Source of the DNA: Pseudoselenomonas ruminantium
GTDB lineage: Bacteria > Bacillota > Negativicutes > Selenomonadales > Selenomonadaceae
Assembly (NCBI RefSeq): GCF_900104055.1
Contig: NZ_FNJQ01000023.1
Location: 1 to 58,306 of the forward strand
Reading direction: 5' to 3'
Length of the DNA: 58,306 nucleotides
A program made the translations under genes and the position numbers. The notes under the pieces are model-generated. The model saw only the letters and a list, made by a program, of their open reading frames with translations, did not search any database and was not told where the DNA came from. Of this stretch, positions 19,512 to 57,312 are shown piece after piece; positions within the stretch are counted from its first letter, which is position 1, and the number at the start of each line of letters is the position of its first letter.

Positions 19512-19605
19512 GCGCCCAAGGAAGGGCGCAGGCGGGCGTAAATCCCCGGATGGGATTTCAGCCCGCGTTTTCTTTTGGTACTTTTCTTTGCGCCAAAGAA
19601 AAGTA
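19512..19605. repeat. interspersed three-hairpin repeat, family B, copy 1
   Basis: Three inverted repeats in a row: GCGCCC/GGGCGC; GCGGGC...GCCCGC with an inner AAATCCC/GGGATTT; and a 12-bp palindrome TACTTTTCTTTG/CAAAGAAAAGTA around CGC. The unit lies 12 nt beyond the stop of the radical SAM gene (minus strand). Copy 2 is at 54097-54210, also just past a minus-strand stop. The stems change in compensated fashion between the copies. Confidence 0.8.
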
Positions 19606-52024: not shown

Positions 52025-54067
52025 TTATACCTTGAACTTCTGCACTTCTCTCTGCAGATCCATCGCCATCCTGGCCAGCTCGTTGCTGGCATGGGCGATT
52101 TCCTGTACGGAGGCACTCTGTTCTTCGGTGGCCGCCGATACGGTCTCTGCCTCTTCAGCAGCACTGCGGCTTGTTTCGCCGATGGTGCGGACGTTGCTGA
52201 CGATCTGCTGCCCGCTCTCGGCCATACCCGTGATGGCCGTAGAGATTTCCTGCACCTGGCTCGATACATTTTCCACGATCTCGATGATCTTGCGGAAGGA
52301 CTCGCCCATGGACATGATATTTTCCGTGCCCACGCGGACTTCCTCACTGCCCGCCTGCATACCAGCTACAGCACTGTCCGTATCCCGGCGTGTCTCTTCG
52401 ATCAGCGTGGCAATGCGATGGGCAGCTTCCTGCGAGGATTCGGCAAGCTTCCTGACTTCATCGGCCACCACGGCAAAGCCGCGGCCATGTTCCCCAGCCC
52501 GGGCCGCTTCGATAGCAGCGTTGAGCGCCAAGAGATTGGTCTGCTCGGAAATGCTGGAAATCGTATCCACGATCTGGCCGATTTCGCTGGAACGTTCGCC
52601 CAGCGCCGTAACCACCTTGGTGGATTCCTTGGTGGATTCTTCAATCCGCTTGATCTGGCCAATGGCTTCGTTGAGCGTCCTGCCACTATCCCGGGCCACA
52701 GCGGATGCTTCCCGGCTGTTAGCAGCTGCGGCATCGGCCTTGCCGGCAATCCCCTGGATATTGTCATTGAGATTTTCGATAGCTTCGGAGGTGGAGCTTA
52801 CGGCTTCTAACTGTTCGCTGGTGCCCTGCGCCACTTTCACGATGCTGTCGGCCACCTGATTGGAGGCCTGTGCCGACTGGTCGCTGGTGGCATTGAGTTC
52901 TTCCGACGCCGCCGACAGGCTTTCGGCGGAAGCACTGACATTATAGAGCACCTTCCGCACGCCCTGCCGCATGGAGCGCACAGCCCCGGCCAGCTGACCT
53001 AATTCATTGCTGACCGTGATCTGCGCCGGACGATCCTGGAAATCGCCATCCGCCAGCAGACGCATCTCGTCCATCATCACAGCCAGCGGTCTCATGGAAC
53101 GGTTGACCGTGATCCAGACGCCCAGGGAAATCAGCACGATCAGCACCAAAGAAATCAACGTCATGATCTTCAGCACCGTAGCCACCGGCGCAAAGAGCTC
53201 ATCCTGATAGGCCACCGTGGCCATGCCCCAACCTGTTGCCTTGATGGGATTATAGAAGGCAATCATATCTTCCCCATCAGCACGGGTGAATTTATAGACA
53301 CCAGCCTCGCCGGAGAGCATCTTTTCCCCCAGCGTACGCACGGCCGGATCATCGTCCTCAGAAATCTTCTTCTTCATGATGGACGCTTCATCGGGATTGA
53401 CAATATAGGTACCCTCTTTGGAAACCAGCAGGCTATAGCCTTTTTCCCCCAGCTTGAAGTTACTAACCTTCTCCATCACGGCATCCACATAGATAGCCGC
53501 CAGTACCATGCCGACATTGGCGCCGTTGTTATCCTTGGCCAAAGCGATGGAATTGACGATGATCTTGCCGGTAGCCTGCGATATGACTGGCGAGGCCATA
53601 AAGCTGTCCTTGGCTCCCGTCATGGTCTCCTTATACCAGGCTTTATCCGCATTATGCATCTCCTTGAAACCGGATTTGGTCTGCCCATAGAGCACTCCCG
53701 AACCATCAAACGGCCCCCAGCTCACACTGTCATAGACACCAGGATAAATCTTTTCCATCAGCTTGAGCCGGTAGACATTATTCTCATTCATCAGCTCCGG
53801 CGCATTCTGCAGATTCTTGGCCGCTGGCTGAGAAGCTGCTGTCTGCGTCTCCAGCATCCGCGCATCCAGCCACGACGATACCCCGCTGGCCACTTCCTGC
53901 GCATTCCGCAGGGAACTGGTCGTCAATTGCTCCTCAAAGGTAGAACCCACATAACGGAAAATAATCCCCGCCATCAACATAAGCCCGATAACCACGATTG
54001 GAATCACAAAAAGTAAGATCTCCGCCTTAACCGTCCGTCCCCGTTCCGGAATAACCTGCTCAGCCAT
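52025..54067 (-). CDS. methyl-accepting chemotaxis protein (dCache-HAMP-MCP signal)
   Basis: About 680 residues. A transmembrane helix at about 17-38 and a second near 300 enclose a double-Cache ligand domain ([50 protein letters not shown]). HAMP and a long helical signalling domain follow, with the hairpin tip [20 protein letters not shown] and [18 protein letters not shown]. It signals to CheA/CheW, whose genes are outside the window. The start at 54067 has GGGGAGGGG upstream; the longer frame crosses repeat family B and is not credible. Confidence 0.93.
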
Positions 54068-54096: not shown

Positions 54097-54210
54097 GGCG
54101 CCCATGGAGGGGCGCCTGCGGACGTAAATCACGTGATGTGATTTCAGTCCGCGTTTTCGCCTGTGCCCGCAAGGGTATTTGGATACTTTTCTTTGCGCCA
54201 AAGAAAAGTA
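54097..54210. repeat. interspersed three-hairpin repeat, family B, copy 2
   Basis: Same order of three inverted repeats as copy 1 (19512-19605): GGCGCCC/GGGGCGCC; GCGGAC...GTCCGC with inner AAATCAC/GTGATTT; and the 12-bp palindrome TACTTTTCTTTG/CAAAGAAAAGTA. It has an extra segment of about 17 nt before the last palindrome. It lies 10 nt past the stop of the SHMT-like gene. Confidence 0.8.
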
Positions 54211-54220
54211 TCACCACGAA

Positions 54221-55507
54221 TTAAATATTCCAGTGAATCATCGCCCGCATCGCCATCTCGGCATCGCCGTCATCAAATGCCTCCATTTCCGGCAACCAGT
54301 CTTCGGCGAACAGTGGCAGATCCTCCACCAGTTTCTTGATGAACTTGCTCACGGTCTGCATGGCCGCTTCATCCTGCGGCGAATTGAGGAACTGGCCCAG
54401 TATCCTGCCGACCTCCTCCATTTCCTCCGCCTGCAGGAAACGTGTCGCACTGTCCAGACTGGACAGGCGCAAGATCGGATAGCTGATATTATCCTCGGAA
54501 GTCATCAATGTCTCCGCCTTGACCAAAAGCCCGGCTTCCTTCAGCTTATCGGCCACATCTTCCCCGTCCGTACCTTCCGGCAGTTGCACCAGCACCAGAT
54601 GATTTTCCGTCGGACTGCACAAGAGCTTGCAACCGGCACTGAGCAGCCCATTTTCCAATCCCCGGGCATTGTCTAGGACCTGCTGGGCATAATCCTGATA
54701 TTCCATGCAATCTGCTTCCTTGAATACCAAAGCCAGGGACGCCAGTACATTTTTCTTCAGGGAGCTATGCCCCGTCTCAATCACGGTCCTGTCCAGAAGC
54801 TCCGCGATCTTTTCCTTGCAAAGGATAATACCATTCTGCGGTCCATGCAGGGCATCGCTGGCCGCAAAGGTCGCCACATCTGCATAAGAAACCGGCGAAG
54901 CGATCTTGCCCGCGGCCACCAGCCCGGAATTCTGCCCCAGGTCGATCCATAGATATGCCCCGACCTCATCAGCAATCCTGCGCAGCTGGGCATAATCAAT
55001 ATTGCGCGGATAGTTGACCGGCGAATAGATGATCATATCCGGACGATGCTTATGCGCCAGCGCCTGCACCTTCGCAAAATTCAGCTCCAGCGTATCCGGC
55101 TCCACACCAAACTTCACGAAATCATACTGCAGATCGCCAGTGCAATGCTCCGACTTGCGCAGGTTGAAGGAAAGCACCGTGTCTCCCTTTTTCAACAGCG
55201 CCAGCATCACGACACGGGAAGCAATCGCCAGACTGCCGGTACGCACGATCGCATGCTCTGCCCCATAAAGCTCCTTGGCCCGCGCCACCGCCAGCCGCTC
55301 CAGCGAACTGCGATGATGCGTCTTATGATGGTCAATGATCTCATCCCCCAGCGTACTGCCCTTCAGGAACGCAGCAAACGGCGAAGCCGCATTCGTGGTC
55401 GGTATCAACGACAAGGTGATGCGCTGCTGCTTGAGCGCCCGCTTCAACTGCCCGCAGAGTTCAGGATCAAAGGATTCTAATTTCGTCAGGATTTTCTCAT
55501 TGGTCAT
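54221..55507 (-). CDS. serine hydroxymethyltransferase-like protein lacking the catalytic lysine
   Basis: A 428-residue protein with clear SHMT-like blocks: ARAKELYGAEHAIVRTGS, LLKKGDTVLSFNL, VKFGVEPDTLELNF, SPVNYPRNIDYAQLRRIADE, VGAYLWIDLGQNSGLVAAGK and ADVATFAASDALHGPQNGII. In SHMT the last block reads ...TTTTHKTL.GPRGG; here the PLP-binding lysine position is D218 and the preceding histidine is S217. The catalytic SEN glutamate (TTN, about 37-39) and the histidine of DMAH (Q192) are also changed, while the pyridine-contacting aspartate (D189) remains. So it is probably not an active SHMT. The ATG at 55507 is 8 nt after AAAGGA; the frame to 55726 is non-coding. Confidence 0.8.
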   Translation of the reverse strand: MTNEKILTKLESFDPELCGQLKRALKQQRITLSLIPTTNAASPFAAFLKGSTLGDEIIDHHKTHHRSSLERLAVARAKELYGAEHAIVRTGSLAIASRVVMLALLKKGDTVLSFNLRKSEHCTGDLQYDFVKFGVEPDTLELNFAKVQALAHKHRPDMIIYSPVNYPRNIDYAQLRRIADEVGAYLWIDLGQNSGLVAAGKIASPVSYADVATFAASDALHGPQNGIILCKEKIAELLDRTVIETGHSSLKKNVLASLALVFKEADCMEYQDYAQQVLDNARGLENGLLSAGCKLLCSPTENHLVLVQLPEGTDGEDVADKLKEAGLLVKAETLMTSEDNISYPILRLSSLDSATRFLQAEEMEEVGRILGQFLNSPQDEAAMQTVSKFIKKLVEDLPLFAEDWLPEMEAFDDGDAEMAMRAMIHWNI

Positions 55508-55656
55508 ATGTACTGTCCTTTCTAATCTATGACTATTTTTATATAAGATACATTTATTTTTATCACAAATGTAATTCGATAAAGAACGGCAAAATTCCTG
55601 CTCCTTATCAGTCTTTCGCTCACTCAATTCAGACGCGCTCCCATTACCGGAAGCAA

Positions 55657-55846
55657 GCGTGGCGGGGAATGCCTGACCGGAGCGTAAGGCAATGGGCGTT
55701 AAGAAAATATTTTTCCTCCACCACAAAAAGAGTCATTAAAAGTCAGCTGTTTGAGCGCAGCGAGTTTTGACTTTTAATGACTCATCCAAGAGGAAAAATA
55801 TTTTCAGCCCGTTGCCGAAGCGCAGGGCAGGTATTCCCCGCCACGC
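55657..55846. repeat. 190-nt multi-segment palindrome upstream of the SHMT-like gene
   Basis: Four nested arms pair in order: GCGTGGCGGGGAATGCCT (55657-55674) with 55829-55846; GGCAATGGGC (55688-55697) with GCCCGTTGCC (55807-55816); GAAAATATTTTTCCTC (55703-55718) with 55790-55805, perfect; GAGTCATTAAAAGTCA (55730-55745) with 55768-55783, perfect. The 22-nt loop contains GAGCGCAGCGAG. It fills the 368-nt gap between the symporter stop and the SHMT-like start, together with an AT-rich stretch (55508-55620) that probably holds the promoter. Confidence 0.85.
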
Positions 55847-55875: not shown

Positions 55876-57312
55876 TTACTTATTCATGTCTTCCCATTTT
55901 TCTTCCAGTTCTTCCACGATGCGGGCATGTTCTTCTTCCGTCAGCGTAACCTTGCCGCGATAAACAAAGGCTGCAATCACGAGCAGGATTACCGGAATCG
56001 CGAACATGATGAGCTGGAATTTCAGCAGGCTGCCAGCCGTGATGTCTGCAGCCGTAGCACCGCCGGTCATACCGACCCATACAGCCGTCAGACCTACGAT
56101 ACCACCCGTAACGGCACCGGAGAGTTTATCCACCAGCGGACGTACGCAGAGGCAGACCGCTTCATCACGATGACCGAGTTTCAACTGGCCATATTCCACA
56201 GAGTCCGTGATGGTCATGAGAACCACCAGGAAGATAAGGGGCTGCGGAAGGTTGAAGAGACCAGCAGCAACCAGAGCCATCCAAACATTGGTGCCGGACA
56301 GTGCATAGAGAATCAGTGCAGCCGTCATGATAGCCAGAGAGCTGAAGAACAGTTTGCGGCGGCTGAATTTCGTCGTGAGTACCGGGAAGAGAGCCACAGC
56401 CATCAGGCCGATTACGACGTTGATGATACCTAAGATGGAGAATTTCGTTGCATCACCGATAACATAGATGAAATAGTAAAGATTGAAGTTATTGACAATA
56501 TTCTGACCTAAGCCCAAAATCAAATAAGCGCAGGCAATCCACAGCAGCTGGTCATTCTTGGCCAGGACCTTGAACACATCTTTAAAAGAAGTATCAACCT
56601 TGTTTTCACGCAGAGCCGAATCCTGTTCCTTCGTACCAATGCCCAGGATGATTGCGCCCAGCGTTGCAATACCGCCGCCGATGCAGGCAAAGGCAAACCA
56701 GCCCTGCGGATCGCCAGCACCGCCATTCTGATTGACGGAGAAATACAGGACAATCGGCATAACCATGATCGTAACGAGCTGACCGCCGAACACAGATCCG
56801 ATACGGGCAACCGTGGCCGTGATCTCACGCTCATGGGAATCAAAGGACAGTGCCGGAATCATGGACCAGATAGCTACGTCTTTAGCGGAGTAGAACACGT
56901 CCATAATGAAGTAAACGATTGCAAAAAGAATCAAATAAAGCGTCGGATTGGAAACCGTCAGGCCGCCGAAATCCGTGAACAGAGCGGCCAGCGTGATGGC
57001 TGCTACGAACGCACCCACGATAACCCAGGGCTTGAAACGGCCCCAACGGGTTTTCGTCTTGTCGATGATATTGCCCATAAACGGATCGATGAAGAGTTCT
57101 GCCACACGCAGAACCATGATGATGGTCGTAACCACACCAATCATATAAGCATCCCGGCTGGGATTGTTGGACGAGAACAGGTTACTCGTCACGAAAATCA
57201 TGAAATACGTTGCCAACATGGCGTAAAATACGTCATGGCCAAAGGTGCCGCAAGCATATGCAATACGCGGCCACATGCTGCTCTTTTTCTCTGCCACTGC
57301 TACTGCCTCCAT
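55876..57312 (-). CDS. GPH-family sugar:cation symporter
   Basis: A 478-residue transporter with about 12 membrane segments. The N-terminal RIAYACGTFGHDVFYAMLAT, LFIDPFMGNIIDKTKTRWGR and FKPWVIVGAFV match the glycoside-pentoside-hexuronide:cation symporter family (MelB, XynB, YicJ); TITDSVEYGQLKLGHRDEAV and SVRPL-like VRPLVDKLSGAVTGGIVGL are the second-half signatures. The substrate is probably a sugar or glycoside. It is 17 nt downstream of the cytidylate-kinase-like gene and shares its promoter and operators. Confidence 0.9.
   Translation of the reverse strand: MEAVAVAEKKSSMWPRIAYACGTFGHDVFYAMLATYFMIFVTSNLFSSNNPSRDAYMIGVVTTIIMVLRVAELFIDPFMGNIIDKTKTRWGRFKPWVIVGAFVAAITLAALFTDFGGLTVSNPTLYLILFAIVYFIMDVFYSAKDVAIWSMIPALSFDSHEREITATVARIGSVFGGQLVTIMVMPIVLYFSVNQNGGAGDPQGWFAFACIGGGIATLGAIILGIGTKEQDSALRENKVDTSFKDVFKVLAKNDQLLWIACAYLILGLGQNIVNNFNLYYFIYVIGDATKFSILGIINVVIGLMAVALFPVLTTKFSRRKLFFSSLAIMTAALILYALSGTNVWMALVAAGLFNLPQPLIFLVVLMTITDSVEYGQLKLGHRDEAVCLCVRPLVDKLSGAVTGGIVGLTAVWVGMTGGATAADITAGSLLKFQLIMFAIPVILLVIAAFVYRGKVTLTEEEHARIVEELEEKWEDMNK

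Follow-up and report, generated by a model that had tools for sequence, protein, structure and literature searches.

A family of serine hydroxymethyltransferase-fold proteins lacking the cofactor lysine, encoded mainly beside organic-anion transporters in Selenomonadaceae and Succinivibrionaceae

Serine hydroxymethyltransferase (SHMT) is among the most universal metabolic enzymes, and it was detected in all 14 control genomes searched here. Loss of the Schiff-base lysine is familiar from other PLP-enzyme folds: the LCB1 subunit of serine palmitoyltransferase lacks it, and ColD-type dehydratases carry histidine in its place. For SHMT itself, the K226Q and K226M mutants of the B. stearothermophilus enzyme have been solved with glycine or serine, according to the titles of the structure entries, and lysine loss alone therefore need not abolish cofactor binding. 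A review of pseudoenzymes (PMC10211241) mentions serine hydroxymethyltransferase solely as the abbreviation SHMT2, and no description of a lysine-less bacterial SHMT family was found in the literature searched, most subscription journals being outside that search. The family presented below is apparently undescribed; lysine-less proteins of PLP-enzyme fold are already known in other families.

The window analysed, a stretch of 58,306 nucleotides, belongs to contig NZ_FNJQ01000023.1 of Pseudoselenomonas ruminantium (assembly GCF_900104055.1). It contains a gene on the minus strand (54221..55507, including the stop codon) that encodes a 428-residue lysine-less SHMT-fold protein (P0001) in an uninterrupted frame beginning with ATG. 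A ribosome-binding site, AAGGA, was read from the sequence 8 nt before the start codon (55516..55520, minus strand). Residues 10-369 of P0001 match positions 1-398 of the 399 in the Pfam SHMT profile (PF00464) with an E value of 2e-53 and a score of 181.9 bits (cut-off 27), while the NCBIfam SHMT subfamily model gives 234.2 bits, under its 335-bit cut-off. An AlphaFold model of P0001, built from 19 family members (mean pLDDT 85, pTM 0.84) and poorly predicted only at residues 408-428, superposes on SHMT crystal structures with TM scores by query length of 0.77-0.85 in the 50 best rows and Z scores of 42-45 across 366-395 residues. The near-whole profile match and this superposition together assign P0001 to the SHMT fold, which is predicted to be kept at full length. 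The wide margin over the Pfam cut-off suggests that P0001 is probably annotated in databases as SHMT, an annotation that would mislead metabolic models.

The active-site block of P0001 reads A-S-D-A-L-H-G-P, against T-H-K-T-L-R-G-P in SHMT, with S217-D218 (codons 54854..54859, minus strand) replacing the His-Lys pair that holds PLP. Alignment with GlyA of the same genome (L001, 33% identity) shows the same replacement (THKT to ASDA) together with the changes of SEN to TTN and of DxAH to DLGQ; the PLP-ring aspartate D189 (codon 54941..54943, minus strand) is retained. An earlier note, made from the sequence alone, had claimed an SHMT fold over most of the length with Ser-Asp for His-Lys, replacement of the SEN glutamate and the DMAH histidine with retention of D189, an intact frame with a good ribosome site, and a chemoreceptor downstream with a sugar symporter as neighbour. 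All of these claims held, the first by alignment, profile and model, and the last with a dCache chemoreceptor and a GPH symporter. The note had also stated that a lysine restored by a different alignment would refute it. Among 136 aligned lysine-less genes, five proved to be second copies of the same contigs, leaving 131 distinct homologues: 111 in Selenomonadaceae and 20 in Succinivibrionaceae. The state of the lysine position was read individually in these 131 only and not in each genome match. The PLP lysine is missing in all 131, and residues 208-226 do not contain a single lysine in any of them, so no local realignment restores it and this alternative was rejected.

The loss extends well beyond the lysine. 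Sixteen PLP-site residues are listed for E. coli SHMT (PMC7916883), of which 15 could be mapped, Y65' falling in a shortened loop. P0001 keeps three of the 15: the stacking histidine H126 (H121 here), the ring aspartate D200 (D189 here), and R363 (R347 here; codon 54467..54469, minus strand), which we take to be the substrate-carboxylate binder. Of the other mapped residues, S99 is missing from GlyA of the same genome too. Family-wide, the ring aspartate and R347 are kept in 131/131 members and the stacking histidine in 104/131; S35, G98, S175, and K229 of the E. coli enzyme are kept in none of the 131, and R235 and G263' in none of the 111 Selenomonadaceae members. The Succinivibrionaceae keep more than the Selenomonadaceae, namely G263' in 18/20, H228 in 13/20, and T226 in 12/20. 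The DxAH histidine is replaced in 129/131. Loss of SHMT chemistry, inferred from the sequences, is close to certain.

Other positions have been gained. Loop 1, which in SHMT builds the dimer and the folate site, comprises 11-14 residues in the 131 lysine-less members, about 7 fewer than in SHMT, where it has 19 residues in 22 of 23 canonical proteins (33 in the remaining one); it also has 19 in all four rows of the lysine-keeping sister group described below. Eight conserved residues are found in none of the 23 canonical and four sister rows: R117, K118, S162, P163, and S349, each present in 131/131 members, S33 (130/131), H247 (127/131; codon 54767..54769, minus strand; Gln in SHMT), and Q192 (122/131). 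P36 occurs in 130/131 members and also in one canonical row, and S113 was not counted as gained because it is present in three of the four sister rows. K118 is the sole lysine conserved in at least 90% of the 131 members and lies three residues before the PLP-stacking histidine. The R117-K118 pair (codons 55154..55159, minus strand) aligns to E. coli residues 122-123, between Leu121 and Gly125, two folate contacts of that enzyme (PMC7916883), and falls by alignment in or at the edge of the loop described in a study of Helicobacter SHMT (PMC6294363) as the cofactor lid and the side wall of the folate site. That the gained residues lie in the pocket is inferred from alignment and from these SHMT papers, not from model coordinates.

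The residues that take the place of the catalytic ones are less constant than the gained ones. The earlier note had proposed to ask whether D218, S217, and T38 are conserved among close homologues, and as hallmarks all three failed. The D218 column is Asp in 103/111 Selenomonadaceae, the other eight being Glu (two), Ala, Asn, Gly or gapped (three), and Gly in 20/20 Succinivibrionaceae; D218 is therefore not universal and was rejected as a key residue. T38, at the position of the SEN glutamate, was rejected as well: the position varies in Selenomonadaceae and is Glu in 22/22 Succinivibrionaceae alignment rows. S217 is variable across the family. The hallmarks of the family are the short loop 1, the loss of most cofactor contacts, and the invariant R117-K118, S162-P163, and S349.

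A Pfam profile search of the genome revealed three SHMT genes. The first is a normal glyA on contig C40, scoring 603 bits and encoding the lysine, which answers the earlier note's question whether such a gene exists elsewhere in the genome. The second is a further lysine-less paralogue on contig C29 (174 bits), 50% identical to P0001 and with the block GDSLRGPQ. The third is the window gene.

The family is general rather than a peculiarity of this genome, a result that goes beyond the earlier note. A search of 380 genomes of the class with the family alignment gave matches at E 1e-100 or better in 92, of which 89 belong to Selenomonadaceae (189 genomes of that family searched); the three outside it (G216, G306, and G309) all keep the lysine. 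With this query, full-length lysine-less genes of Selenomonadaceae score above 500 bits and the best-scoring canonical ones about 314-325 bits; the match in genome G135 is a truncated relative. In a sample of 398 genomes of the phylum, matches above 500 bits came solely from seven Selenomonadaceae genomes; the remaining listed matches scored 329-348 bits, and their lysine state was not read individually. Phyla beyond those sampled were covered only by a scan of genome contigs, which found a lysine-less gene also in a Succinivibrio metagenome-assembled genome and in Ca. Avisuccinivibrio; its 80 best loci comprised 70 with Lys, eight with Asp, and two with Gly. Succinivibrio belongs to the family Succinivibrionaceae of the Gammaproteobacteria, in which 36 of 56 genomes have matches at E 1e-90 or better. 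Two of these genomes were checked and also carry a separate gene that scores like canonical SHMT (234-241 bits) and has the lysine in its block. A search of the order that contains Succinivibrio (295 genomes) gave 16 matches, every one within the same family set. Restriction to one genus can be rejected: the lysine-less family is well preserved in two groups of mostly animal-associated bacteria from two phyla.

A tree built from 95 rows by quick search, with SH-aLRT support only and rooting on canonical SHMTs, places all lysine-less proteins in one clade with support of 100 on a long branch (0.92). Within it, the Succinivibrionaceae (support 100) are separate from the Selenomonadaceae (support 87). 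The sister group, with support of 98, is a small set of lysine-keeping SHMT paralogues from other Negativicutes (L242-L245), with a QKT or HKT block and a C-terminal W404 in common with the lysine-less family. It is likely, therefore, that the family arose once, from a PLP-dependent SHMT paralogue. A dicarboxylate or glutamate symporter is encoded near three of the four sister paralogues: a sodium:dicarboxylate symporter (SDF) near L242 and L243, the latter also near aspartase, and a sodium/glutamate symporter (GltS) on the other strand near L245; no symporter is in view at L244. The locus near aspartase also has a gene of the Asp/Glu racemase family close by. It is possible that these paralogues are aldolases for an acidic beta-hydroxy amino acid.

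The selection acting on the lysine-less genes was estimated as pairwise Nei-Gojobori dN/dS in 27 Selenomonadaceae pairs, one of them saturated; Succinivibrionaceae were not among the pairs. The 26 measurable pairs gave dN/dS of 0.01-0.11. The window gene compared with eight orthologues gives 0.043-0.063 in seven cases, the most distant reaching 0.105; for the C29-type paralogue, four pairs gave 0.051-0.095, and 14 of 15 pairs of a third subgroup gave 0.011-0.051, dS being saturated in the last. Single values are rough because dS exceeds 1 in many pairs. The lysine-less genes of Selenomonadaceae are under strong purifying selection. For these members, loss of catalytic residues in a gene that is still under purifying selection has been shown, while absence of catalytic activity is inferred. 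The earlier note's claim of selection for a new role instead of decay is supported by the 131 homologues, the dN/dS values, the single clade, and the conserved gene order; among its alternatives of ligand sensor, scaffold or different chemistry no decision can be made.

In the window, the lysine-less gene is followed by a dCache methyl-accepting chemotaxis protein (52025..54067, minus strand), whose start at MAEQV was chosen by eye within an open frame extending to 54217, and preceded by a cation symporter of the GPH (MFS_2) type (55876..57312, minus strand). In the window's subgroup of 12 genes, a GPH symporter is located upstream in nine and a dCache chemoreceptor downstream in 11. This sugar-type symporter and chemoreceptor are peculiar to the subgroup; elsewhere the usual partners, not foreseen in the earlier note, are organic-anion transporters.

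The spacers around the window gene contain palindromic repeats. A perfect 14-bp inverted repeat (GATACTTTTCTTTG, 3-nt loop) is located at 54182-54212, between the SHMT-like gene and the chemoreceptor. A genome search with its 12-bp arms gave exact matches at 11 sites and two more with two mismatches, against none for the reversed control; this is an intergenic palindromic repeat family, and 19579-19605 holds a further copy within the window. In the spacer separating the symporter from the SHMT-like gene, at 55657-55846, three nested inverted repeats (arms of 27, 16, and 16 bp) form a palindromic element of about 190 bp with five partial relatives elsewhere in the genome.

For 116 genes, spread over 105 loci, a transporter was counted as a neighbour if encoded on the same strand and at most 500 bp upstream. 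This criterion was met in 93 of the 116 rows. After removal of three duplicates and two Succinivibrionaceae rows, 90 of the 111 Selenomonadaceae genes have a transporter upstream: 34 DASS_C, 34 CitMHS-like, 13 DASS_B, and nine GPH. Median gaps to the partner are 15 bp for DASS_B, 31 bp for CitMHS-like, 63.5 bp for DASS_C, and 191 bp for GPH. The 21 genes without such a partner comprise eight that are the second gene of a tandem pair behind a DASS gene, two at contig ends (one with a CitMHS-like gene directly downstream), three of the window's subgroup, and eight with another or no recognisable neighbour. In Succinivibrionaceae the recurring order is DASS, lysine-less SHMT, a Dus-family gene, and an aldo/keto reductase. 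Of 18 loci there, 11 have a DASS gene upstream in the same orientation, seven of them with gaps of 6-301 bp and four with gaps of 727-1298 bp; the other seven, one of which is at a contig end, have no DASS gene upstream. The third gene is present in 18/18 and the fourth in 17/18 loci, their family names having been checked with Pfam in one locus. The link between gene and transporter is strong and, as gene order, directly observed: the lysine-less gene usually stays behind a transporter while the type of transporter changes. DASS_C is the partner on the deepest branches of both clades; it was therefore probably the first one and later gave way to other transporters.

In eight loci of one Selenomonadaceae genus (L224, L225, L226, L229, L230, L231, L233, and L234), a single DASS gene is followed by two diverged lysine-less genes in tandem. 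Such a pair might permit a heterodimer.

DASS_C resembles VcINDY and the mammalian citrate/dicarboxylate carriers. The two substrate carboxylates are bound by SNT motifs (PMC7553777), and both motifs are present in 32/32 full-length DASS_C genes, one contig being counted twice, while the second motif of DASS_B is SHT instead of SNT in 12/12. With partial genes (two in G090 and one in G097) left aside, there are 35 DASS_C genes of at least 74% identity, and for 31 of them the next gene downstream is the lysine-less one; the exceptions are one each in G028, G029, G081, and G083. Seven loci with a DASS_C-type gene and no adjoining lysine-less gene were viewed. In four of them (L306, L312, L313, and L314) a Na+-pumping decarboxylase beta subunit, assigned by Pfam, lies beside the DASS gene, in L306 at the usual place of the lysine-less gene; in the other three (L307, L308, and L316) no decarboxylase subunit was found. 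A protein encoded in L314 is closest to the methylmalonyl-CoA decarboxylase alpha subunit but under its cut-off (920.8 of 998.8 bits). From the SNT motifs and the neighbouring decarboxylase subunits, C4-dicarboxylates are inferred to be the likeliest substrates of DASS_C, the motifs carrying the inference. The CitMHS-like partner, at 25.5 bits, does not reach the Pfam cut-off and is only weakly assigned; 116 of the 189 genomes encode it, in many cases with no lysine-less gene present. This transporter evidently does not need the lysine-less gene, and an obligate dependence on it is unsupported.

The DASS and Na+-transporting decarboxylase clusters of L306, L312 (twice), L313, and L314 are possible succinate or oxaloacetate decarboxylation modules.

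The reading that we favour, though the evidence does not yet tip the balance clearly in its direction, is that the family consists of pseudoenzymes whose emptied pocket binds an organic acid, probably a C4-dicarboxylic one, and thereby ties transport to metabolism. Both ligand and role are inferred, as there are no ligand, binding or phenotype data. According to this reading, an SHMT paralogue gave up Schiff-base chemistry at the usual place, and the vacated pocket would bind an organic anion, most likely a C4-dicarboxylate, through the kept R347 and the new R117-K118, S162, H247, and S349. Binding would change the state of the protein and thereby adjust either how the transporter is used or how the imported acid is metabolised. 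Within the window's subgroup, the gene would have moved from an acid transporter to a place between a sugar-type symporter and a chemoreceptor, where its product may sense the same acid. A soluble protein that persists while transporter families change is more likely tied to a common substrate than to one physical partner. Several observations weigh against the acid-binding reading: the window gene's own neighbour is a sugar-type symporter, the second motif of DASS_B is altered, and the CitMHS-like assignment is weak. Three of the seven partnerless DASS loci have no decarboxylase, 21/111 Selenomonadaceae genes have no transporter within 500 bp upstream, 7/18 Succinivibrionaceae loci have no upstream DASS gene, and the K226Q and K226M structures are a warning that cofactor binding may outlive the lysine.

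The rival that survives best, and that remains possible, is that the protein is still an enzyme, PLP-free or holding PLP non-covalently, and acts on the imported acid through H247, D189, and R117-K118. In its favour, several residues placed in or near the pocket by alignment are strictly conserved, the ring aspartate and R347 are invariant and the stacking histidine is kept in most members, and the soluble partner is constant while transporter families change, as would be expected of a substrate-linked enzyme. Against it stand the complete loss of S35, G98, S175, and K229, the absence of R235 and G263' from all Selenomonadaceae members, and the lack of any suggested known chemistry.

A related proposal, that the lysine has migrated and K118 forms the PLP Schiff base from the other side, is unlikely. 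It is supported by the conservation of K118 in 131/131 members as the sole lysine of its kind, with Lys in 0/23 canonical and 0/4 sister rows, and by the role of the stacking-histidine loop as cofactor lid in E. coli SHMT (PMC6294363). However, most PLP phosphate and ring contacts are gone, the adjoining R117 is equally invariant, which would suit an anion clamp, and the matching E. coli residues lie between two folate contacts, the position being known by alignment only. The bolder version, in which the site has been rebuilt and K118 with R117, S162, H247, and S349 forms a new catalytic or Schiff-base site, is likewise doubtful. If true, it would describe an SHMT-fold enzyme with a migrated lysine that acts on an imported C4-dicarboxylate or its adduct and works with the dicarboxylate transporters of Selenomonas- and Succinivibrio-type bacteria.

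Lysine-less subunits serve as heteromeric partners in some other PLP enzymes, and the protein could accordingly be a partner or regulator of the cell's own GlyA. A normal glyA does coexist with the lysine-less gene here, and both Succinivibrionaceae genomes that were checked likewise carry a lysine-keeping SHMT; in addition, the two chains of an SHMT dimer both contribute residues to the active sites at their interface (PMC7916883, PMC6294363). This explanation is nevertheless very unlikely, as a canonical SHMT gene was not found in the 105 neighbourhood loci and loop 1, which builds the dimer and the folate site, has 11-14 residues instead of 19. There is as little to recommend a purely physical accessory subunit of the transporter that binds no ligand: the tight spacing to the acid-transporter gene would agree with it, but the partners come from different transporter families, some genes have none, and several invariant residues fall by alignment in the former cofactor and folate site. 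Decay of a glyA duplicate, suggested by the missing catalytic lysine and the truncated relative in G135, is all but ruled out by near full-length open frames in nearly all listed members, low dN/dS, and conservation across two phyla, and sequencing error was rejected in view of the open frames, low dN/dS, and many homologues.

Having lost the catalytic lysine while the fold stayed under selection, the lysine-less SHMT family is a natural experiment on the conversion of a cofactor enzyme into something different. It is found repeatedly with organic-acid transporters, both in Selenomonadaceae and in the unrelated Succinivibrionaceae, which suggests that rumen and gut bacteria handle organic acids with a component not recognised so far. 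Organic acids are of consequence in these habitats: according to a meta-analysis (PMC12345532), malic acid favours Selenomonas ruminantium, a lactate user, while an effect on lactate uptake in cattle could not be confirmed.

Compared with GlyA (PF00464), the family shares the fold over nearly the whole chain, the PLP-ring aspartate, and the equivalent of R363, and differs in having no PLP lysine, a short loop 1, and most cofactor contacts replaced. The sister paralogues L242-L245 resemble it in the C-terminal W404, in the symporters near three of four loci, and in being without G98, T226, and Y55'; unlike it, they keep the lysine, the DxAH histidine, and a full loop 1. LCB1 and the ColD-type dehydratases belong to different families; here the lysine is replaced mostly by Asp or Gly, most cofactor contacts are lost as well, and there is a link to acid transporters. 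In the reuse of an enzyme fold after loss of catalytic residues, the lysine-less proteins resemble pseudoenzymes in general (PMC10211241).
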